A stretch of DNA of 30,331 nt, from positions 1-30,331 of the IMG/VR virus record IMGVR_UViG_3300020201_000077; one strand, 5' to 3'. This document shows positions 5,538-29,658 of the stretch, one piece after another. The translations under genes were made by a program, and so were the position numbers. Below the pieces are notes generated by a model. It saw nothing but the letters and a program-made list of their open reading frames with translations, was not told the origin of the DNA and ran no database searches. This stretch comes from a virus. Every line of letters starts with the position of its first letter. Position 1 is the stretch's first letter.

Positions 5538-6176
5538 ATGCTAGACAATAAACAACTTAAAAAAATAGCACGACTCGCCAAAATAGCCGACAAAGGTGAA
5601 GTTGCCATAATTGAAGAATTAGATTCAATAGACGAGCAATTAGAGGCACTACAGGGCAAGGTAGAGAGTGCTCTATCTATCTCAAGCAAAGCAAAGAATG
5701 GCATACAAGGGGTACAGGGGGTGCAAGGAAAGAATGGAGAAAAAGGTAAAGATGGAGTAAACGGAAAGAATGGAGAAAACGGGGAAGATGGGCTTAACGG
5801 TGTGAATGGCGTTAACGGTGCTAATGGAAAAGCAGGTAAAGATGGAAAGAATGGCAGGTCTCCTCTGATAGGCTGGGGTGCTCATCCATTACGAGTAGAA
5901 CAAGCAGGTGTTATGAAAACAAAGGTTGCAAGAACTTTAAACTTTAAAGGTACAGGGGTTCCCACGATTACTCAAAATGCGAACGGAACAACAGAGCTAA
6001 ACTTCGCAGGCGGTACTGGGTTCAGTGGGGAATTACTTGATTCTACCTCTACAGCGATTGCGGTGGTTTTAAATGGGTTAATTATCAGCACTTACTTTAC
6101 TCCAGCAGCAGGTTTCCTATTACAAGAAGATGGATTTTTCATATTACAAGAAAATGGAGACAAAATTATATTATAA
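5538..6176 (+). CDS. Collagen-repeat tail fibre protein
   Basis: 212 residues. Residues 1-52 are a charged helix likely to trimerise. Residues 55-108 are 18 uninterrupted Gly-X-Y triplets (GKN, GEK, GKD, GVN), a collagen-like triple-helix stalk. Residues 109-165 form a beta-rich head and the C-terminus carries a short repeated motif, LLQEDGFFILQENGDKIIL. Helix, collagen stalk and small beta tip are typical of trimeric phage fibres that reach out to the host surface. It has its own near-leaderless promoter and precedes two more fibre-type genes. Confidence 0.8.
   Translation: MLDNKQLKKIARLAKIADKGEVAIIEELDSIDEQLEALQGKVESALSISSKAKNGIQGVQGVQGKNGEKGKDGVNGKNGENGEDGLNGVNGVNGANGKAGKDGKNGRSPLIGWGAHPLRVEQAGVMKTKVARTLNFKGTGVPTITQNANGTTELNFAGGTGFSGELLDSTSTAIAVVLNGLIISTYFTPAAGFLLQEDGFFILQENGDKIIL
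5700..5861 (+). repeat. Collagen-like 9-bp coding repeat
   Basis: Eighteen consecutive nine-base units, each encoding Gly-X-Y. Early units are near-identical (GGGGTACAG then GGGGTGCAA), which leaves room for length variation by slippage. Confidence 0.8.
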
Positions 6177-15905: not shown

Positions 15906-16412
15906 ATGACAAAATGCAATTATTGTAAAGAAGAACATCAATTAAAAAACACAGGTTGCTACAACTCTGGCTACTACAACTCTGGCTACCGCAACTCTGG
16001 CAGCTACAACTCTGGCTACTACAACTCTGGCTGGTTTAATACTGATGAGCCAACGATGCGTTTCTTTAACAAGGAAAGCAGTATCAAGTATTCAGATTTT
16101 AATGTTCAAGTGTACCCAGACTTAAAAATTTGTGATTGGGTAGAACTAAACGCCTTACCAATAGACGAGCAAACAGAAAGTGCCAAGCAGATGGGTGGAC
16201 TTCTTAAAACTCTAACCTATAAAGAAGCTTGGGCTGAGTACTGGAATCGTGCAAGTGATAGTGATAAGAAATGGTTTCAAGAATTGCCGAACTTTGACGA
16301 AAAGATTTGGGAAGAAATAACGGGTATTAAACTAAACGCACCGCTTTCTCTTTCTGGTAAAGAAGTATCAGTAACTATAGATGGTAAAACTTACAAAGCC
16401 ATTATTAACTAA
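15906..16412 (+). CDS. Pentapeptide-like repeat protein
   Basis: 168 residues. An N-terminal CNYC pair is followed by five or more YNSGY-type repeats (residues 17-43: NTGCYNSGYYNSGYRNSG and on), then FNTDEPTMRFFNKES and a 110-residue globular part. Asn-Ser-Gly pentads form a right-handed beta helix in related proteins. Some bacterial pentapeptide proteins mimic DNA, but this stretch is short and no such role is shown. The type is frequent in phage accessory regions. Confidence 0.65.
   Translation: MTKCNYCKEEHQLKNTGCYNSGYYNSGYRNSGSYNSGYYNSGWFNTDEPTMRFFNKESSIKYSDFNVQVYPDLKICDWVELNALPIDEQTESAKQMGGLLKTLTYKEAWAEYWNRASDSDKKWFQELPNFDEKIWEEITGIKLNAPLSLSGKEVSVTIDGKTYKAIIN
15959..16033 (+). repeat. 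15-bp tandem repeat inside the pentapeptide gene
   Basis: About five units of the form TACAACTCTGGCTAC, near-identical at DNA level, encoding YNSGY. Recent expansion or slippage is likely. There are no spacers, so this is not a CRISPR array. Confidence 0.75.
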
Positions 16413-18607: not shown

Positions 18608-18796
18608 ATGAGACAAGAACCAAAGAAAAGGGATAAATGTTATTACTGTGAGAAATGTATTTTTAGCACTCAACCCAAGCACAGAATAAAAAGAGAGTAC
18701 GCTAATCATTATAAAGACCAGTTCGCTCACATAGGTTGTAACAAAGCTAATAGTATTGCTTTGCAAATAAAAAAATATGAAAATCATACACAATAA
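18608..18796 (+). CDS. Small Cys/His protein, probable zinc binder
   Basis: 62 residues. CYYCEKC at 11-17 and H37/H42 with C45 (FAHIGCNKANS) give a treble-clef-like ligand set resembling that of the 10834 protein. It is basic throughout. The last 20 bases overlap the GroEL gene. Possibly nucleic-acid binding; function unknown. Confidence 0.55.
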   Translation: MRQEPKKRDKCYYCEKCIFSTQPKHRIKREYANHYKDQFAHIGCNKANSIALQIKKYENHTQ

Positions 18797-20099
18797 TCCT
18801 AAGGAAGTTATCATGAACGCGGTGGATAAGTATTTAGACTTTATAGCCCCTACTTATGGACCAGCAGGTAAAACTATCTTAATAGGCTCAGACGGAGTAA
18901 AGGCAGTAGATGATGGAAAGATTGCCTCAGAACATTTTGAAGTAGAAGATGACTTTGAACAGGCGGTGATTGAGTACATAAAAGATACTACTCAAAAGAC
19001 TAACGAAAGAATCCAAGACGGTACAACTACATCAGCAATACTTATGTCCGCTCTTATCAAAGAGATTTTTAATACTAAAGGGCACAACAAAACAAATATT
19101 GTTGAAGTAAAGAAAGGATTGCAAGAAGCAAAAGCCTATATAATAAAGAAAGCTAAAACTGTAACAGGCAAAAAAGACCTCCAAGAGATCGCGTACAGTG
19201 CATACAATAACAAAGAAGTTGCAAAGATAATAGCAGAAGTAGTCTTTCAAGTAGGAGTAAATGGAATCATTCACATAGAGGATGGAGCAGAAATGACCAC
19301 TAGCTATGAACTAGCAGCAGGATTTGAAATACCAACAGGCTATGTGTCTACCCACTTAATCAATCGTGGGGATAGTGTATTTCTAGATAAACCCTATGTC
19401 ATCATAGTAAATGACGCACTTAACTCTATCCAACAGGTAATGCCTATCCTTGAGCTGGTGATGAAGTCTAACAAAAAAGAGTTTGTAATCATGGCGGACT
19501 CATTCGGAGACCAAGTACTAAGCTTAATCGCTGTGAACAAAGTCAATGGAGTATTTAAACCTTTATTGGTAAACAACGCAGGCTTTGGAGATGAGAAGTA
19601 TGAAACCTTAAAGAAAATATCAGAACTAACAGGAGCTAAGGTACACGACCTTAAACTAGGAGCTATAACAAAGGAAGACTTCGGGCAAGCTAAGTCAGTG
19701 AACGCTACAAAGAACACAACGTCTATTATAGGAAACAAAATCATAGAAGGTGGCAAATCTGCTGTTATTAAAGTAGGAGCACCAACAAAGAACGAGCAGC
19801 AGACAATCAGAGAGAAGATAGAAGACGCTGTGGGTGCAACTAAGATAGCACTATCATCAAAGTATGGTATAATAACAGGAGGAGGTATAACGTATAAGAA
19901 CATAAAAACATCGTCACCAATTTTAAACAAGGCACTAAAGAAACCAAGAGAGATACTAGAATCCAATGGTAAAGAATTCCTAAAGGAAGTATACGACCCA
20001 GCAGAATCTCTTATTGCATCACTTGAAACAGCAGTAAGTATAGCTTGTGGATTAGCAGAGATAGGAGGCATCTCAGTAGTTAAAAGAATTAAAGAATGA
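18777..20099 (+). CDS. groEL: Phage chaperonin GroEL (Hsp60), shortened
   Basis: 440 residues against about 548 in E. coli. GroEL rings fold proteins in an ATP-driven cycle. ATP-site motifs are kept: YGPAG (27-31), DGTTT (81-85), IEDAVGATK around D350 (GroEL D398) and GGG (368-370). The apical domain is recognisable (GYVSTHLINR, NNAGFGDEKYETLKKISELTGAKV, GQAKSV). Two in-frame losses are seen: about 40 residues after TTSIIGN, where GroEL has a long apical helix pair, and about 30 near the C-terminus where GroEL has its NAATEEYG segment. The Gly-Met tail is absent. It overlaps the upstream gene by 20 bases and abuts the SET gene. It probably folds capsid or tail proteins together with the GroES at 22651. 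Confidence 0.93.
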   Translation: MKIIHNNPKEVIMNAVDKYLDFIAPTYGPAGKTILIGSDGVKAVDDGKIASEHFEVEDDFEQAVIEYIKDTTQKTNERIQDGTTTSAILMSALIKEIFNTKGHNKTNIVEVKKGLQEAKAYIIKKAKTVTGKKDLQEIAYSAYNNKEVAKIIAEVVFQVGVNGIIHIEDGAEMTTSYELAAGFEIPTGYVSTHLINRGDSVFLDKPYVIIVNDALNSIQQVMPILELVMKSNKKEFVIMADSFGDQVLSLIAVNKVNGVFKPLLVNNAGFGDEKYETLKKISELTGAKVHDLKLGAITKEDFGQAKSVNATKNTTSIIGNKIIEGGKSAVIKVGAPTKNEQQTIREKIEDAVGATKIALSSKYGIITGGGITYKNIKTSSPILNKALKKPREILESNGKEFLKEVYDPAESLIASLETAVSIACGLAEIGGISVVKRIKE

Positions 20100-20100
20100 T

Positions 20101-20553
20101 ATGGAAGAAGAAACTGATATAGAAAATATAAACTATATAAATAGTACAGTATGGGCAACCCTGAAGAAATCTTCTATTCATGGTATAGGGGTATTTGCTA
20201 TAAGAGACATTCCTAAAGGGACTAAGTTATCAGACAACAACGTCACAGAACCTATTAATTTAAAACACTTTACATTTAATAAAAAACAATTACGTCTAAT
20301 AAGACCAGAAATACTTAATCTTATTTTAGACAGAACTATTTTCCCAAAAGGAATTGAAGAAGTTACTATTGTAAGCCCTAACAGTAATTATACGTTGACA
20401 GCTTTTTGTAATCACTCAAGCGAATCAAACTGTGACTCAATATATGCTATAAAGGACATAAAACAAGACGAAGAAATACTAACAGATTTTAATAGTTTTT
20501 ATCCTTTAGATGAATTAACGCTTAATCACATGGGGTTTTTAATAAAGACATAA
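20101..20553 (+). CDS. SET-domain protein (possible lysine methyltransferase)
   Basis: 150 residues, one base after groEL. Core SET motifs are present: HGIGVFAIRDIPKGTKL (28-43), which binds S-adenosylmethionine, and FCNHSSESNC (102-111), the NHS motif, followed by AIKDIKQDEEILTDF (116-130). SET enzymes methylate protein lysines. The Tyr usual in the last motif (GEELTxDY) is Phe130 here, so activity may be altered, with Tyr134 as a substitute. The target is unknown; placement between groEL and terminase suggests a phage chaperone or packaging protein, or a host factor. Confidence 0.8.
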   Translation: MEEETDIENINYINSTVWATLKKSSIHGIGVFAIRDIPKGTKLSDNNVTEPINLKHFTFNKKQLRLIRPEILNLILDRTIFPKGIEEVTIVSPNSNYTLTAFCNHSSESNCDSIYAIKDIKQDEEILTDFNSFYPLDELTLNHMGFLIKT

Positions 20554-20554
20554 T

Positions 20555-20929
20555 ATGGCATCATTAGACGCAGAAAACGTAGCGAAAGAGGTATTGGATA
20601 CTATTGGAAAAGGCAAGAAGGTTGTTTTAGGTGAAATCATAAGAAGAAATGGGTACGCAGATAACACAGCAGACACTCCACAATTAGTAACTGAAACAAA
20701 ATCATATCAAGGAGTTATTGCACCCTATGTAGAGAGACTAAAGAAAGAAAGGGATAGAGCATTTGAAGCAATGTCTATAAAAGACTTAGATGAAGTACAG
20801 TATGAGGACTTAGTGAGAGCAACGGACAGTCTTACAAAGAACATACAGCTACTAACAGGAGGAGAGACTGAAAGAATAAGAATGGTTATACTACCAAGCG
20901 AACTTATAAACAAAAATGATACTCCATGA
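20555..20929 (+). CDS. terS: Terminase small subunit (putative)
   Basis: 124 residues, directly before and overlapping the large subunit by 14 bases. An N-terminal helical, possibly DNA-binding half (NVAKEVLDTIGKGKKVVLGE, IIRRNGYADNTAD) precedes a coiled oligomerising part (YVERLKKERDRAFEAMSIKD). The LGEIIRRNGYA pattern is common in small terminases, which recognise the packaging site and load the motor. The call rests on this and on synteny. Confidence 0.8.
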   Translation: MASLDAENVAKEVLDTIGKGKKVVLGEIIRRNGYADNTADTPQLVTETKSYQGVIAPYVERLKKERDRAFEAMSIKDLDEVQYEDLVRATDSLTKNIQLLTGGETERIRMVILPSELINKNDTP

Positions 20930-22133
20930 AACTCAAAAGCTAGTAGCAATTGATACACACCGTTTTAGAGTAGTGAATTGCGGTAGACGATGGGGAAAGA
21001 CCACTCTTGCTATTCTTGAAATGGTTGCTAAAGCAATATACAAAGACGATGCAAGGGTTGTATACATAGCACCTACATATCAACAAGCTAGAGACATAGC
21101 ATGGAATGAATTAAAAAGAATATGTTTACCTATATCATCAGCAATTAACGAAGCACGTCTTGAGATTACAGTAAATACAAAGAACGGTGGCTCATCGCTT
21201 ATCTGGCTAAGAGGTTGGGAAAGTGTGGAAACACTACGAGGACAGAAGTTTGATTTTGTTGTAATAGATGAGATAGCTAGTATGAGAAACTTTTGGTTAA
21301 ACTGGCAAGAGGTATTGAGACCAACACTAACTGATAGAAAAGGTCATGCTTTGTTTATATCAACACCAAAAGGATTTAATCATTTCTATGATTTATATAA
21401 TTTTACAGACGAGGACTACAAGTCCTTTAATTTTACAACGTATGATAACCCTCATCTACCAGTAGAGGAGATTGAGAAAGCAAAGAAAGAGCTACCAGAG
21501 GATAGATTTGCTCAAGAGTACATGGCAGATTTCAGAAAGAGTGAGGGCTTAGTATATAAAGAGTTTCAAAGAACATTTCATGTATTTAAAAATGCTCCTG
21601 CTAAAGAATGGATAAAGACATTCGGAGGACATGACTTCGGTACTAACAACCCTTGTGCCTCAATAACTATTAAGAAAGATAGAGACTCAAACTATTATGT
21701 ATGGGACGAGTTCTATAAGTCAGGGCTAACAGACGCTCAACAAGCAGACTATGTAGCATCTCTTAAATGGGATGAGTGTTATCCTGACCCAGAAAGTGCA
21801 TCAGGCATATTAGAGTTTAAAAAGCGTGGTATCAATGTCCGAGAGGTTATAAAAAACAAAGACTCAGTTCGAAACGGTATCAATGTAGTTAAAGAACTAT
21901 TTAAGACAGGAAGACTACATATACACGAATCATGCAAAAATTTAATATATGAGCTAGAGACTTATGCATACCCTGAAAGAAGACCAGACCACAACGAGGA
22001 GGAGAACCCAATAAAAGAAAACGACCACGCTCTTGATGCTCTTAGGTACGCAATATCAATGCACAACACTCAAAGAGACTTGCCACCAGTCTACAAAAGA
22101 CCGCACGAACAAAGAAAGAATCCTGCTAGATAG
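20916..22133 (+). CDS. terL: Terminase large subunit
   Basis: 405 residues. This motor pumps DNA into the prohead and cuts it. Walker A is CGRRWGKTT (22-30), Walker B VVIDE (115-119), and the coupling motif STPKG (149-153). The nuclease domain shows D240 in GGHDFG, acidic residues near 286-294 (DECYPDPES) and D374 in NDHALDALRYA. Length is usual for the family. It overlaps the small subunit and is followed by a new promoter. The SET and chaperonin genes lie upstream in the same cluster. Confidence 0.96.
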   Translation: MILHETQKLVAIDTHRFRVVNCGRRWGKTTLAILEMVAKAIYKDDARVVYIAPTYQQARDIAWNELKRICLPISSAINEARLEITVNTKNGGSSLIWLRGWESVETLRGQKFDFVVIDEIASMRNFWLNWQEVLRPTLTDRKGHALFISTPKGFNHFYDLYNFTDEDYKSFNFTTYDNPHLPVEEIEKAKKELPEDRFAQEYMADFRKSEGLVYKEFQRTFHVFKNAPAKEWIKTFGGHDFGTNNPCASITIKKDRDSNYYVWDEFYKSGLTDAQQADYVASLKWDECYPDPESASGILEFKKRGINVREVIKNKDSVRNGINVVKELFKTGRLHIHESCKNLIYELETYAYPERRPDHNEEENPIKENDHALDALRYAISMHNTQRDLPPVYKRPHEQRKNPAR

Positions 22134-22149
22134 TTGTATTTATTATTTG

Positions 22150-22158
22150 TGGTATAAT
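22150..22158 (+). promoter_or_regulatory. Extended -10, leaderless promoter
   Basis: TGgTATAAT ends eight bases before the ATG at 22167. TTGTAT (22134-139) is too close for a standard -35 (13-base spacer). Likely drives the head-gene block. Confidence 0.6.
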
Positions 22159-22166
22159 ACATTTAA

Positions 22167-22424
22167 ATGAAAAAAACTAAACCAACCGTTTTCAATCTAA
22201 AAATCACACTCGCAGGGAAAACCCTAACAGGAGAAGGGGACACCGCTCTCGAAGCTCTTAAGTCAATCAATCCACCTCTTAAGATATTTACTAAGGCAGA
22301 CATTGAACTTACTCTTGGTAAAAAGAAGATGAAGCAAACATGGCAACCCAACAGAGTCAGACGGTTATTCTATCCACTATCACAGGGCATATTATCAAAG
22401 CAATTAGAATATTTATTGAAATGA
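22167..22424 (+). CDS. Small conserved head-block protein
   Basis: 85 residues. A beta-rich start (TVFNLKITLAGKTLTGEGDT), then ALEALKSINPPLKIFTKADI and a basic end (RVRRLFYPLSQGILSKQLEY). Similar small proteins lie between terminase and portal in other phages. Its TGA overlaps the next ATG. Role unknown. Confidence 0.6.
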   Translation: MKKTKPTVFNLKITLAGKTLTGEGDTALEALKSINPPLKIFTKADIELTLGKKKMKQTWQPNRVRRLFYPLSQGILSKQLEYLLK

Positions 22425-22606
22425 AGCCCAACTATGCGATAATGACTGAAAGAATCGTTGGCGATGTGAAAGTTGTTGAAGTAGACACAAGCAAAGCAAC
22501 ATATCAAGGGATAAGCTGGAGAACACTAGGTGATTTTGGAAAGAGAAAGCTAGAGAATATGCTTGTATTAGAACAAAGAGAAAGAGTTAAGATTTTATAT
22601 GTTTAA
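22421..22606 (+). CDS. Small hypothetical protein
   Basis: 61 residues from the ATG at 22421, chosen because it overlaps the previous stop as ATGA; a longer form from 22340 would overlap by 85 bases. It is a small alpha/beta protein (RIVGDVKVVEVDTSKATYQG), with a C-terminal RKLENMLVLEQRERVKILYV helix-strand. Confidence 0.55.
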   Translation: MKPNYAIMTERIVGDVKVVEVDTSKATYQGISWRTLGDFGKRKLENMLVLEQRERVKILYV

Positions 22607-22611
22607 ACCAT

Positions 22612-22650
22612 ATGCCTTATACAGACAAACAAAAGAATAAAATAATATAA
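22612..22650 (+). CDS. 12-codon ORF before groES
   Basis: MPYTDKQKNKII, ending exactly at the groES ATG. The start resembles the N-terminus of some HNH endonucleases (MPYKD...KQ), so it may be a remnant. It could also be a coupling ORF or chance. Confidence 0.2.
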   Translation: MPYTDKQKNKII

Positions 22651-22896
22651 ATGAAATTCACGCCATTAAACAACCGAATACTTGTAAAACCAGACGTTGT
22701 ACCAAATGAGACAAAGAGTGGTATCCTGCTTGGTAATGTAAGCGAGAAGCCAGCAACAGGAACAGTAATAGTTGGAGGACAGCTTGTAAAGGAGGGTGAC
22801 AGCATCCTTTTTTCTAAGTTTGGGTTTGATGAAACAGAGATAGACAAACAAATTTATTATGTGGTCGCAGAACATAACGTGTTAGGAATAAACTAA
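22651..22896 (+). CDS. groES: Phage co-chaperonin GroES
   Basis: 81 residues, shorter than the host's roughly 97. GroES forms a seven-subunit lid on GroEL. The N-terminal strand FTPLNNRILVKP is typical, the mobile loop (17-33) keeps a hydrophobic tripeptide (GILL at 24-27) matching the IVL that docks on the apical domain, and the C-terminal half (GTVIVGG, LVKEGDSILFSKFG, YYVVAEHNVLGI) matches the barrel. The roof loop is shortened. It lies 2.5 kb from groEL, separated by terminase genes, and overlaps the portal start by one base, so it is made together with head proteins. Confidence 0.9.
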   Translation: MKFTPLNNRILVKPDVVPNETKSGILLGNVSEKPATGTVIVGGQLVKEGDSILFSKFGFDETEIDKQIYYVVAEHNVLGIN

Positions 22897-24704
22897 TGGA
22901 AGACCAAGACAAAGACATTTTCAATTACATAGTGGCTCAAGAAGCTAACTATAAACAACCAATACCAATAAATGATGTATGGAATTGGTCAATGAAAGAC
23001 CACATCAAGACCAGTGACCTATACTTGAACTCACAGTTACTAACAGGCAAGAGTGATTTTAAGCCTGTAAAGAACATTACACGCCCTATTCTTAATCTTC
23101 AGCATAGAACAGAAGACTTGGAACTAAAGGATGTCCAAATCTATGTGGATAGCCCTGAGTTATATCACCTCTCCTTTCTTGTTAAGAAATACCACGATGA
23201 CATCTTCGTTCAAGAAAATGACCTTGATACATACTTTGATGAACTCAATGTCTCTAGGATAGACTTCGGGGGTGGACTATCAAAGAAAATGAGCAAAGCT
23301 AGACCAGAGCTAGTACCTTTGCAGTCTATTGCATTTTGTGACCAGACAGACATTCTTTCAGGTCCTATTGGTATCAGACATTATTTCTCACCAGACCAGT
23401 TAATGGATATGAAGAAAGTGGGCTGGGGTGATGAAAAGAATGGAGCAACCATAAGCGTAGAGGAACTGATTACATTATCTCGCTCAGAGAAGAAGAACGA
23501 CAACACCGATGGGCAAATAGCCAAGACTACAGGGCGGTACATTGAGATATTTGAAGTACATGGGAACCTGCCTAAAAGGTTTGCAGACCCCACAGATGAC
23601 TCAGGAGAATACGAAACCCAAATCTTTATAGTTGGTTTCTATCAAAAGAAAGGAAGTATGGATAAGCAAGGAGTCACACTATTTACAAAGGCAGAAAATA
23701 CAAGCCCATTCAAGTTTATTAAAAGAGACCCAGTGTATGGGCGAGCATTAGGCTTCGGAGGTGCAGAAGAACTGTTCGAGGCTCAAGTGTGGATAAACTA
23801 TGACATGATTCGTATGCAAGCTATGTTAGACGCTGCTTCGATAACAATCCTTAAAGCTATTGGTCCAAATAGTCAAAAGGTAGCAGGGCAAAAGCTAACA
23901 GACCTTGAAAACCTTGAAATATTAGATTTAGGAGAGGGTGGAGACTTGGGGCAAGTTGATACATTCCCAAGAAATATGCAGTTGTTTGATAACTCAGTCC
24001 AGCAATGGGAAGCACACGCACAACAAATGGGTGCAGCTAATGACGCTATTATGGGAAACAGCCCAGCATCAGGAACACCATTCAAGCTACAAGAGCTTGT
24101 TACATCAGAAGCACACGGACTGCACGAATACCGAAGAGGACAGTTTGCTAAGCACATCGAAGAAATATACAAAGACTGGATTGTCCCACATATCCAGAAG
24201 AAAATAACAGAAGGGTATAAATTCCTATCAGAGCTATCACTTGAGGAGTTGCAATATGTAGGAGAAATGCTCGCAAATAACGAAGCAAACAAAAGACTGA
24301 AAGACATGGTACTAGCAGGAGAAGAAGTTACACCAGATATTCAGAAAACTATGATGGAACTTATCATGTTGGACTTCAAGAAGAAAGGGAGTAAACACTT
24401 TATAGAGATACTCAAAGGAGAATTTAAGAAAGCAACATTGTCAGTGAAGGTATCAGTGAAAGGTAAGACAAAAGACTTAGCAGGAAGAACAGATAAGCTA
24501 GTCAATATCTTTAGAGAAATTATCGTTAATCCAGCAGTGCTAACAATCCCAGCAATCGCTAAGATATTCAACGACATCCTAGAGTCATCAGGACTAGACC
24601 CAGCAGACTTCTCAGGGATTACCAAAGAGCAATTACAAGCAACACAGCCTCAGCCAACTGAGCAACCTGTAACACAAAATACCGATGGACAAGTCAGCAT
24701 TTAA
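22896..24704 (+). CDS. Portal protein
   Basis: 602 residues, in portal size range, placed after terminase and before scaffold. Portals form a 12-subunit ring through which DNA passes. Features that fit are the N-terminal SDLYLNSQLLTGKSDF stretch, a beta-rich wing with EVHGNLP and QIFIVGFYQK, long C-terminal helices (YRRGQFAKHIEEIYKDWIVP; LQYVGEMLANNEANKRLKDM) and a Pro/Gln-rich tail. The call depends largely on position and architecture. The groES stop and this start share a base. Confidence 0.82.
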   Translation: MEDQDKDIFNYIVAQEANYKQPIPINDVWNWSMKDHIKTSDLYLNSQLLTGKSDFKPVKNITRPILNLQHRTEDLELKDVQIYVDSPELYHLSFLVKKYHDDIFVQENDLDTYFDELNVSRIDFGGGLSKKMSKARPELVPLQSIAFCDQTDILSGPIGIRHYFSPDQLMDMKKVGWGDEKNGATISVEELITLSRSEKKNDNTDGQIAKTTGRYIEIFEVHGNLPKRFADPTDDSGEYETQIFIVGFYQKKGSMDKQGVTLFTKAENTSPFKFIKRDPVYGRALGFGGAEELFEAQVWINYDMIRMQAMLDAASITILKAIGPNSQKVAGQKLTDLENLEILDLGEGGDLGQVDTFPRNMQLFDNSVQQWEAHAQQMGAANDAIMGNSPASGTPFKLQELVTSEAHGLHEYRRGQFAKHIEEIYKDWIVPHIQKKITEGYKFLSELSLEELQYVGEMLANNEANKRLKDMVLAGEEVTPDIQKTMMELIMLDFKKKGSKHFIEILKGEFKKATLSVKVSVKGKTKDLAGRTDKLVNIFREIIVNPAVLTIPAIAKIFNDILESSGLDPADFSGITKEQLQATQPQPTEQPVTQNTDGQVSI

Positions 24705-25544: not shown

Positions 25545-25610
25545 CCTCAAGTTCGTTTAATTATTAAGAATTAAACAAACAACAGCTCTTTAACAATTTA
25601 GGTTCATGGA

Positions 25611-25639
25611 TTGCTTTATGAAGCGGTATGGGATATAAT
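25611..25639 (+). promoter_or_regulatory. Leaderless promoter of the HNH gene
   Basis: TTGCTT, a 17-base spacer and a perfect TATAAT (25634-639). The ATG at 25646 follows after six bases. An 8-bp AT-rich hairpin (25555-562 with 25569-576) lies upstream. This lets the endonuclease be made apart from capsid transcription. Confidence 0.7.
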
Positions 25640-25645
25640 TATCTT

Positions 25646-26278
25646 ATGCCAAAAGGAATTTATCTTCACAAACCAGAAAACTATCCACCATCTCGCAAAG
25701 GCTCTAAGCTCTCAAAAGAACATTTAGAAGCCTTGAGAGTCGCAAACTTAGGGAATAAACATTCTCTAGGGAAAAAGGATTCAGAGGAAACTCGAAGACT
25801 TAAAAGCGTAAACTCAGCAAGACATTGGCTAGGTAAAAAAAGACCTTTAGTGTCTAACGAGACTAAGGACAAGATGAGTAAGTCTCTGAAAGGTCACAAG
25901 GTTTCTGAATACACACGACAACGAGTGAGCAGTCTTTCAAAAGGTAAGTTTGGGAGACAGCATCATTGTTGGGTAGAAGATAAAAAAAGACCGCTCCAGA
26001 AAGCAATCCGTGAAATCTTTAAGTATGTAGAATGGAGAAAGACCATATTCACAAGAGATAATTATACTTGCGTGTTATGTGGGACGACAGGATATGTAGA
26101 AGCAGACCATTGCCCGACTCGTTTTGTGGATATATTGAAACAGAATAAGATTGAAACTATAGACGAAGCAATAAAATGCGAACAACTATGGGATACAGGA
26201 AATGGAAGAACTTTATGCAAACCTTGCCATCTTAAGACTATTACTTGGGGACGAAAACCTAGATTGCAAAAGAAATAA
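25646..26278 (+). CDS. HNH homing endonuclease beside the capsid intron
   Basis: 210 residues from the ATG at 25646, chosen because it lies one expected step after the -10; an upstream ATG at 25628 is within the promoter. Residues 20-105 hold NUMOD3-type DNA-binding repeats (SKLSKEHLEALRVANLGNKH, SNETKDKMSKSLKGHK). The HNH zinc finger follows: C142/C145, D154-H155, N186 and C191/C194/H195. It cuts one DNA site to start gene conversion. It ends eight bases before the capsid ATG, outside the intron, rather than inside as in most mobile introns. Confidence 0.9.
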   Translation: MPKGIYLHKPENYPPSRKGSKLSKEHLEALRVANLGNKHSLGKKDSEETRRLKSVNSARHWLGKKRPLVSNETKDKMSKSLKGHKVSEYTRQRVSSLSKGKFGRQHHCWVEDKKRPLQKAIREIFKYVEWRKTIFTRDNYTCVLCGTTGYVEADHCPTRFVDILKQNKIETIDEAIKCEQLWDTGNGRTLCKPCHLKTITWGRKPRLQKK

Positions 26279-26286
26279 AAAACAAT

Positions 26287-27385
26287 ATGGCTTAACCTCA
26301 GGGTCATATAAAATCTTCTCTGATTGACTTGGAAGTCCAGAAGTGGACGACAGGGCGGAAGCGAAAGCACCGTGAACGACTAAGCGAGAAGACACTGAAA
26401 GGTGAAGCGATAGTCTGCTCTACGATATAACAAAAGAAGTCGTAGAAATGGATAGAAATAATCCATTCCCCGAAAGGGAGTAACAACAAGGAATACAATA
26501 ATCTATCAAGCACTTTGGGAAAACAAGCTCGCACAGCGACTTGACAGACCACAAAACTGGAAAGAGGTTAACGATGTAGTCTACTCAGACGCACAGACTT
26601 ACAACTTTCCTTTAGTTTCACAAGCAAACGAACCAGCAGTTGCAACTCTTACAAACACCGCAGCAGGACGTTCAACACTTTCTAACGTTATTCCTTTCAT
26701 TGACGTTACAGAGACAAACCAAACTCTATCAATCGTAACAGCTGAAATTGACTCAGTGTACCTAGACTACGCTGACCAAGCTCAATCTAACTACGCTAAG
26801 ATGGCAGAAATGGGTAATCTTCTAGGAAAGAAAATCGGAGAGCGAGCAGAAGCTATCTCACTTGGTAACCACGCAGCTTGGACTAACATCGGAGACGTAG
26901 GAGCAGGAGCAGTAGGACTTTCAACAACAACACTTACAGTAACAGCATCAAACGTTGACGACATCGTTCGAGGAATTATTGAACAAGTGTATGTAGCTAA
27001 CGGATTCAACCTTTACAAAGAAAAGGGTGGATTTATCACATGGAGACCAGCAGACTGGACTTTCATGACACAATTCATGCAAGCTAACGGATTCAATATG
27101 GCCGACTCATCTCTAAAGGATGGAGCATCTATTGGAGTTGATTATCTTGGATTGTACCACTACGTTTCAACAGCTCATACAGCACAGCACTTGTTTGCAG
27201 GTATACGAGGCGTACAAAAACTAGGTATTCTAAAGAGTACTTATGGTCGAACTTATGTAAATGAAATGCCAGCTTCTTCAACAGCAGGCTCACTTTCAGG
27301 TACACAAATCCACACACGTCTCGATTACGGACTACTTGTCCCAACTAACCTTCTTCCAACTATATTTGATGTAAATGTCGCATAA
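26287..27385 (+). CDS. Major capsid protein, interrupted by a group I intron
   Basis: Two exons: 26287-26292 (ATG GCT) and 26492-27385, giving 299 residues that begin MANTIIYQALWENKLAQRL. The MANT start and the following QNWKEVNDVVYSDAQTYNFP, then VIPFIDVTETNQTLSIVTAE, fit phage coat proteins of the HK97 fold, and position between scaffold and decoration genes supports this. In unspliced RNA the third codon is TAA, so no capsid is made. A shorter GTG start at 26756 would drop the first 92 residues and is rejected. Codons are rich in aac, gac and atc, as usual for highly expressed genes. Confidence 0.88.
26293..26491 (+). ncRNA. Compact self-splicing group I intron (199 bases)
   Basis: P1: exon and intron bases 26285-292 pair with 26302-309 through 8 bp with U-G at the splice site. 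P3: TCTTCTC (26314-320) with GAGAAGA (26386-392). A GNRA loop GCGAAAGC marks P5. P7: GACTA (26378-382) with TAGTC (26411-415) in the conserved R and S contexts (GAACGACTAA; GATAGTC). P8: CACT-GAAA-GGTG (26393-404). P9 to P9.2: CTACGA with TCGTAG (26420-425/440-445), ATGGAT with ATCCAT (26448-453/461-466), TCCC with GGGA (26467-470/476-479). The terminal G is 26491. There is no ORF inside. Confidence 0.92.
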
Positions 27386-28514: not shown

Positions 28515-28937
28515 ATGAAAGGAAAAAAAGGATTTCAAAAAGGACATGGGTGCTTCTGGTCAGAAGAAACAAAGCTGGCATTTTCAATGAAGACAAAAGG
28601 GAAAGTCTTATCAGAAGAACACAAGAAGAATATTGCAGAAGGCAACAAAGACAACAAGTCTGGTTTAATAAATGGTGAGAAAACAAGATTTGGAAACTAC
28701 GGAAGAGTAGGACATAGCTGGACTGGCACAAAGAATGAGTACAGAAGTCTTCACAGGTGGGTGGAAAACATGTTAGGCAAACCTTGTGAGTGTTCACAGT
28801 GTGGTGTAGTGACTTATGGAAGACAAATACATTGGGCTAACAAAAGCAAAGAGTACAAAAAGGTTCTATCTGATTGGGTTAGACTTTGTGCAAAGTGCCA
28901 TTATCAGTATGACTTTTATAAACTAACAACAAATTAA
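28515..28937 (+). CDS. Free-standing HNH endonuclease
   Basis: 140 residues. NUMOD3-like repeats (SEETKLAFSMKTKGKVLSEE) cover 16-45; the HNH zinc module follows with C93/C96 (CECSQC), H106 and C125/C128/H129 (LCAKCH). It sits between the glycosyltransferase and connector genes, tightly packed one base before the latter. It has its own -10 and probably spread as a selfish element without an intron. Confidence 0.85.
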   Translation: MKGKKGFQKGHGCFWSEETKLAFSMKTKGKVLSEEHKKNIAEGNKDNKSGLINGEKTRFGNYGRVGHSWTGTKNEYRSLHRWVENMLGKPCECSQCGVVTYGRQIHWANKSKEYKKVLSDWVRLCAKCHYQYDFYKLTTN

Positions 28938-28938
28938 C

Positions 28939-29658
28939 ATGGCACTAGCATTTTCAGATAGTATAAACGGTTTAGGAATAGTACAGCAAGTACGAAGCTT
29001 TATGCGTGCAGACTCTAACCAGTGGACCACAGCAAAGATAGTGAACTCATGCAACAACTGGCTAGATACGCTCACAGGGTACGCTATAGGGGCGGATAGA
29101 CGCTTCCAATGGGACAACACGAACCACACAGCACTCCCAGAGGGCACTACAACCTTAACTATTGACCAGACAGACTATTCTTTCCTTACAGACCAGCAAG
29201 GCAACAACATCATCACCCTTACAGGTATTTCAATATTAAGAAATGGTATTTATGTACCACTTATGCCAGTAGATAGAAACGACCCTAGTATTGATGCTTC
29301 AACCTTTGGGGTAAATACTGGTGTGGTAACTTACTACGATAAAATTGCAGATAACGTCATCAGACTGGACGCTAAACCAGAGGCAACAGTATCGTTAGGA
29401 CTTAAATTCTTCTTTCAAAGAACCGCTCCTTCTTTTACAGCTTTGGACACAACCAGAACAACAGGATTCTCTCCTTTACTTGATAGAGGATTTGTTATTG
29501 CATCAGCGTATGAGGGGGCTATAACACTTGGGCTATCAAACATGCAAGCTCTTTCAGCAGAAATGCAAAAAGAAGAGAAGAAAATGATTCAATACTTCGA
29601 GGATAGAAACCAAGACGAAGAAAGAATATTGCGACCAATAGGGATAAGCTTTAGATAA
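28939..29658 (+). CDS. Head-tail connector (adaptor) protein
   Basis: 239 residues. An N-terminal helix bundle (LGIVQQVRSFMRADSNQWTT, KIVNSCNNWLDTLTGYAIGA) is followed by beta strands (EGTTTLTIDQTDYSFLTDQQ) and a C-terminal helix (MQKEEKKMIQYFEDRNQDEE). Such helical N-terminus plus beta body proteins bind under the portal. Position after capsid genes and before tail genes fits. Assigned by architecture and synteny. Confidence 0.68.
   Translation: MALAFSDSINGLGIVQQVRSFMRADSNQWTTAKIVNSCNNWLDTLTGYAIGADRRFQWDNTNHTALPEGTTTLTIDQTDYSFLTDQQGNNIITLTGISILRNGIYVPLMPVDRNDPSIDASTFGVNTGVVTYYDKIADNVIRLDAKPEATVSLGLKFFFQRTAPSFTALDTTRTTGFSPLLDRGFVIASAYEGAITLGLSNMQALSAEMQKEEKKMIQYFEDRNQDEERILRPIGISFR

Follow-up and report, generated by a model that had tools for sequence, protein, structure and literature searches.

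A reduced GroEL with its own roofless GroES in the packaging operon of a small uncultivated phage

How does a phage of about 30 kb come to encode its own chaperonin, and what could that chaperonin do after losing entire helices? The question is raised by IMG/VR virus record IMGVR_UViG_3300020201_000077, an uncultivated phage whose full 30,331-base record we analysed (hereafter the window). A first-pass annotation of the sequence had recognised a GroEL/GroES pair here, with a GroEL shortened in frame by about 40 residues in the apical region and about 30 near the C-terminus. Both genes are real, the deletions are close to those sizes, and we consider it probable (about 62%) that the pair constitutes a reduced group-I-type chaperonin with its own lid, likely a single ring, that folds phage proteins.

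The groEL open reading frame (ORF; 18777-20099, + strand) encodes 440 amino acids (aa; 47.8 kDa), with a single Pfam match, PF00118 Cpn60_TCP1 (E = 2.6e-25; 89.5 bits against a curated cut-off of 34.3), and a match to PHROG 5725, groEL (1.4e-50). The groES ORF (22651-22896, +; 81 aa) matches Pfam Cpn10 (2.8e-13; 50.1 bits against a cut-off of 21.1) and PHROG 3188, GroES. Three related contigs, L002, L003 and L006, encode GroELs of 438-440 aa that are 81%, 79% and 72-73% identical to that of the window, respectively, and together with the window phage they are referred to below as the window family. A GroEL start at Met13, which has a better ribosome-binding-like sequence upstream, was rejected because M1, K2 and I3 are invariant in the relatives and Met13 is not.

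An AlphaFold2 model of the window GroEL built from 38 sequences (predicted local distance difference test score, pLDDT, 88.8; predicted template modelling score 0.80) has the equatorial-intermediate-apical three-domain fold. Foldseek returned whole-chain GroEL matches, of which the relaxed-state structure 4ki8 was the best geometric fit (TMq 0.86, root-mean-square deviation 3.6); the complete GroEL-type chaperonins that it matched among viral models have 511-609 aa. The N-terminal strand, the stem-loop hairpin and the C-terminal strand, which pair between neighbours inside a GroEL ring, are all present in the model. The ATP site is kept, as the first-pass annotation had it. In the alignment, Asp46 (18912-18914, +) and Asp350 (19824-19826, +) correspond to the hydrolytic Asp52 and Asp398 of Escherichia coli GroEL, Asp407 (19995-19997, +) to the nucleotide-contacting Asp495, and Asp81, equivalent to Asp87, opens a DGTTT phosphate-binding motif (19017-19031, +) that is invariant in the relatives; the four aspartates and the GTTT are found in all four members of the window family. 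The GGG turn and Lys327 are also retained, Asp83 is replaced by Glu, and the apical groove positions are largely hydrophobic (Y, H, L, M, L, L, A, V). The protein belongs to the Cpn60 superfamily as a divergent member, and in all likelihood it functions as GroEL does.

To establish what this GroEL has lost, we aligned the window family with E. coli GroEL, 16 GroELs of annotated phages and 80 that came from viral contigs. The segment corresponding to E. coli residues 330-376 (47 aa, apical helices K and L) is reduced to 14 aa in the window family, a net loss of 33 aa at a junction (19731-19760, +) whose residues 319-328 form a variable linker, modelled as a strand-loop-strand (strands 315-319 and 328-333). 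The same segment has 43-54 aa in all other complete sequences of the panel, one fragment at a contig edge having 31 aa. Loss of K and L was thus seen in none of the complete sequences among the 97 other GroELs, although it may occur elsewhere, since the viral-contig sequences were the top 80 by score among at least 557 candidates. The second junction (19962-19991, +; net loss of 28 aa) replaces E. coli residues 459-494 (36 aa), comprising equatorial helix Q and the hairpin carrying the adenine contacts Asn479/Ala480, with 8 aa. This equatorial loss extends beyond the window family, as only 9 aa remain in L030 and 13 in the crAss-like phage cr108_1 (23-45 in the other complete sequences); if the loss in cr108_1 is separate, it has multiple origins. 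The protein has also lost about 12 residues around E. coli 427-437, together with the C-terminal tail. Two apical fragments of known structure, 1dk7 (146 aa) and 1jon (155 aa), terminate ahead of K/L or close to them and suggest by analogy that an apical domain lacking these helices can be stable.

Both internal deletions are in frame, and their lengths at the two junctions are the same in the three relatives, which rules out a frameshift or an assembly error as their source. Purifying selection acts on both genes (pairwise dN/dS, the ratio of non-synonymous to synonymous rates, 0.11-0.15 for groEL and 0.08-0.12 for groES where dS is unsaturated). Shared junctions and selection together indicate that the deletions are fixed features and not chance events or sequencing artefacts. 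These observations also bear on the idea that a host groEL was recently acquired and is now losing pieces without any phage role. The many residues lost and the long stem branch in our tree would fit such decay, but the same junctions persist in four diverged phages under selection, the tree places the protein among other phage GroELs with full support, and its gene sits inside a terminase-portal operon. The first-pass annotation had held that close homologues in hosts, if they shared these deletions, would tell against a phage role; scans of genome contigs with the window-family profile, pattern-based and sensitive to close relatives only, found no cellular relative carrying them. We regard a decaying host gene as very improbable.

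The position of the genes is itself informative. The order is groEL, a SET-domain ORF, a putative small terminase subunit gene (terS), the large terminase subunit gene (terL), two small ORFs, groES, and genes for a putative portal, a putative scaffold and the capsid, so that the chaperonin genes are a pair within a head and packaging operon and not an adjacent groESL cassette. The stop codon of groES overlaps the start codon of the putative portal gene (TAATG), and a Cpn10 gene shares the operon with groEL in all four members of the window family, that is, wherever the region is covered.

The lid is reduced as well. The alignments place the site of a missing roof hairpin of about 15 aa at 22771-22791 (+); the first-pass annotation had pointed out the short length of GroES. 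The mobile-loop region (22702-22737, +), aligned with E. coli GroES, reads SGILL in place of GGIVL and so retains an I-L-L motif, and residues 20-29 have low pLDDT. Foldseek matched the GroES model to Cpn10 structures. Lids of this type have been described: T4 gp31 is also without the roof loops, an absence believed to aid its folding of the large capsid protein gp23 (PMC6318259), but it has a longer mobile loop and works with the host GroEL, T4 bringing the lid only. Flavobacterium phage elemo (~60 kb) encodes a pair whose 83-aa GroES is likewise without the roof hairpin, but its GroEL has 520 aa, its K/L and equatorial segments are intact and its groEL and groES are adjacent. On the alignments, nothing else that we examined combined a K/L-less architecture with the equatorial loss and a roofless lid, and the window-family GroEL is the most reduced chaperone of its kind within this comparison.

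The origin of this architecture can be approached through a sister set found with a profile of the window family plus L030. It comprises L030, L116, L117 and L118 (contigs of 23.8, 9.7, 33.6 and 29.7 kb), whose GroELs of 480-489 aa are 39-43% identical to that of the window over their full length. As in the window, the equatorial segment is already gone and groEL is followed by terS and terL, except that sugar genes lie between them in L116. Unlike in the window, helices K/L are kept, the portal genes have no detectable relation, and neither Pfam nor a custom profile detected a GroES in the sister contigs, which may be incomplete. In the tree, the window family and the sisters form one side of a fully supported branch, on a stem that is long at 1.98 changes per site. 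By parsimony, the loss was probably stepwise, the equatorial segment going first and K/L later, in the lineage with GroES; each has a single origin, so no cause can be deduced from this. Among the sisters, the GroEL of L118 (8001-9443) has Asn at the Asp398 position and a four-residue gap before DGTTT, and may be impaired in hydrolysis.

The sisters also bear on a rival reading, a chaperonin that works without a lid: the short GroEL would hold phage proteins unencapsulated, as those of phages EL, OBP and AR9 may do, and the phage GroES would cap the host GroEL in the manner of T4 gp31. Related GroELs without a detected GroES agree with this, as do the many phages that encode GroES alone (PMC7185714) and reports that the AR9, OBP and EL chaperonins are active without a co-chaperonin (PMC9598537). 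Yet the catalytic residues are kept, selection is strong on both genes, and the two occur together in every window-family member where the region is covered. This makes a lid-independent role improbable in our judgement, and a GroEL that uses the phage's own GroES remains the preferred reading.

How many rings would such a GroEL form? In the alignment, the window family has no counterpart of four ring-ring contact residues (E434, E461, S463 and V464); R452 is matched by Glu, and K105/A109 by Asn/Asn or Ala/Glu. Changes at R452, E461, S463 and V464 of E. coli GroEL abolish ring stacking and give a single ring that traps GroES (PMC5575113). Group I chaperonins have two stacked, staggered heptameric rings, and the deleted or changed contacts argue against stacking and suggest, on alignment, that a single ring is favoured. 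A double ring would require the rings to stack by other contacts, the deletions trimming the surface only. The model does retain residual equatorial helices, and the phage EL chaperonin, just 22% identical to GroEL, forms double rings in some conditions (PMC7185714), but here every aligned ring-ring contact residue is deleted or changed, and we consider a double-ring chaperonin unlikely, if somewhat less so than a lid-independent one.

The working model is therefore a single-ring one. GroEL subunits would assemble into a heptamer, as assumed from homology, probably as one ring of ~335 kDa and not as two stacked rings, which the loss of helix Q and of the contact residues would have uncoupled. 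Non-native phage proteins would bind at the apical groove, left untouched by a K/L loss that would trim only the outer apical domain; ATP would be bound and hydrolysed through the conserved aspartates; and the phage's own roofless GroES would cap the ring via the SGILL mobile loop and so shut in a substrate encoded in the same operon, such as a capsid, portal or tail protein. As the E. coli single ring traps GroES, the phage pair would need a lid that is weaker or differently timed. We put forward more tentatively, at somewhat below even odds, the full proposal of a naturally minimal, lid-dependent single-ring GroEL of ~440 residues, without K/L or ring-ring signalling, paired with a roofless GroES, evolved stepwise in small phages and folding their own head proteins.

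Several observations weigh against this model. The GroEL scores 193.9 bits against the NCBIfam GroEL equivalog TIGR02348, below its cut-off of 582.1, so it should not be named a canonical GroEL. The R197-E386 apical intersubunit salt bridge is gone on both sides (T/S/A and K), and the allosteric cycle must therefore differ in some respect from the E. coli one. With the Asn479/Ala480 adenine contacts absent, nucleotide affinity or specificity may differ. The placement of Glu opposite R452 could be off by one column. Phages without a detected GroES share the equatorial deletion, so it is not by itself the mark of a lidded single ring. Finally, the GroES model has moderate confidence (pLDDT 67.9).

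Comparison with known chaperonins places the pair as follows. With E. coli GroEL/GroES it shares the three-domain fold, the catalytic aspartates, the apical groove and a GroES beta-barrel with a mobile loop, but the GroEL is only about a quarter identical, 108 residues shorter and without K/L, helix Q with the adenine hairpin, and the C-terminal GGM tail, and the GroES is without the roof hairpin. The cr108_1 GroEL (494 aa; L004:3944-5428) resembles it in having a shortened equatorial segment (13 of the 36 residues remain) and in lacking Asn479/Ala480, but keeps K/L and is encoded in a 101 kb genome; its hairpin loss is possibly independent. The giant phages EL, OBP and AR9 also encode GroEL-like rings, with single-ring states known, but these are reported to be independent of a co-chaperonin (PMC9598537), whereas the window has a groES gene; the AR9 chaperonin (562 aa, BFVD) moreover has the K/L helices. 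Environmental viral GroELs were already known (PMC8390657).

Was the first-pass annotation right to call such a pair unusual in a genome of 30 kb? The window contains no terminal repeats of 10 bp or more, and its first and last ORFs are parts of one Gly-rich tail gene, which contig L007, with a near-identical portal, extends beyond the window end. The source contig of L006 (G001, 30,258 bp) has the same gene order with its break point elsewhere, and the window neighbours 28515-28937 and 28939-29658 lie at its opposite ends. Two contigs of near-equal size broken at different points indicate complete, circularly permuted genomes of ~30.3-30.5 kb, and the completeness of the window genome at that size is well supported. 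It is thus far smaller than the genomes of the best-known chaperonin phages, but it is not unique: groEL occurs in a deposited phage of 38,956 bp, with a 107-aa upstream neighbour resembling GroES, in another of 42,941 bp, the far side of which was not searched for groES, and in sister contigs of up to 24-34 kb. A GroEL/GroES pair in a small phage is rare, with precedents.

The remaining genes of the operon show how it is put together. terL (20916-22133, +) matches Pfam Terminase_6N (1.5e-20) and PHROG 2 (4.5e-52); the putative terS (20555-20929, +), lying upstream of it and overlapping it, has no Pfam or PHROG match. The putative portal (22896-24704, +), identified by its length and its position next after groES, has no family match and none among deposited phages, and is 81-85% identical in the relatives. 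The major capsid protein (26489-27385, +), a candidate folding substrate, is 93% identical to a 298-aa protein of L003, and its L006 orthologue matches PHROG 267, major head protein (1.2e-5). L030 clearly shares TerL (50%), and its small terminase, like those of L117 and L116, is ~50% identical to that of L006, but neither the window portal nor the capsid protein of L003 matched anything in the sister contigs. With terminases shared and portal and capsid genes unrelated, groEL appears, on sequence comparison, to have moved together with the packaging genes among phages whose head modules differ.

Other features of these genomes vary. The SET-domain ORF (20101-20553, +; Pfam SET, 9.7e-9), lysine methyltransferase-like and located between groEL and terS, is missing in L002, L003 and L006, where terS directly follows groEL. 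In L003 (7681-8970) and L009 (77-1366), terL is swapped for a distant one (429 aa) that is ~31% identical to that of the L006 contig in its C-terminal part only, with the adjoining groEL, groES and portal remaining similar; L117 carries an SU10-type portal. An insertion of ~0.9 kb (25545-26488) with a NUMOD3/HNH endonuclease ORF (25628-26278) lies at the start of the window capsid gene, which consequently has no obvious in-frame ATG. The same insertion is present in L007 and absent from L003 and L006, and a group I intron was not supported, there being no Rfam match. A 140-aa HNH-like ORF (28515-28937), with a counterpart at the equivalent place in L006, is possibly a second homing element. 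The window also encodes a collagen-repeat protein (5538-6176) and a pentapeptide-like protein of PHROG 14105 (15906-16412). Outside viral records, the genome-contig scans returned one distant relative with K/L intact, on a contig with L116-like sugar-metabolism genes, and a plasmid search returned only distant GroELs (<30% identity) among the matches listed. L126 (MGOZ01000022.1), a 6-kb contig catalogued under a Coxiella metagenome-assembled genome, encodes a GroEL of the sister type; the flanking aminotransferase and epimerase genes resemble those of L116, and L126 is either a mis-binned phage contig or a hint of the host.

The locus amounts to a deletion experiment made by nature on a molecular machine that ranks among the best studied, in which the sister lineage and the window family form a before-and-after pair. 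If the protein is active, it would show that helices K/L, helix Q, the adenine hairpin and the R197-E386 bridge are dispensable parts of GroEL, and how GroES can be let go when there is no second ring, a recognised difficulty with engineered single-ring GroEL, in which the lid stays trapped. A phage of ~30 kb spends ~5% of its genome on a folding cage of its own, and can serve as a testable model of a minimal cage that probably has one ring.

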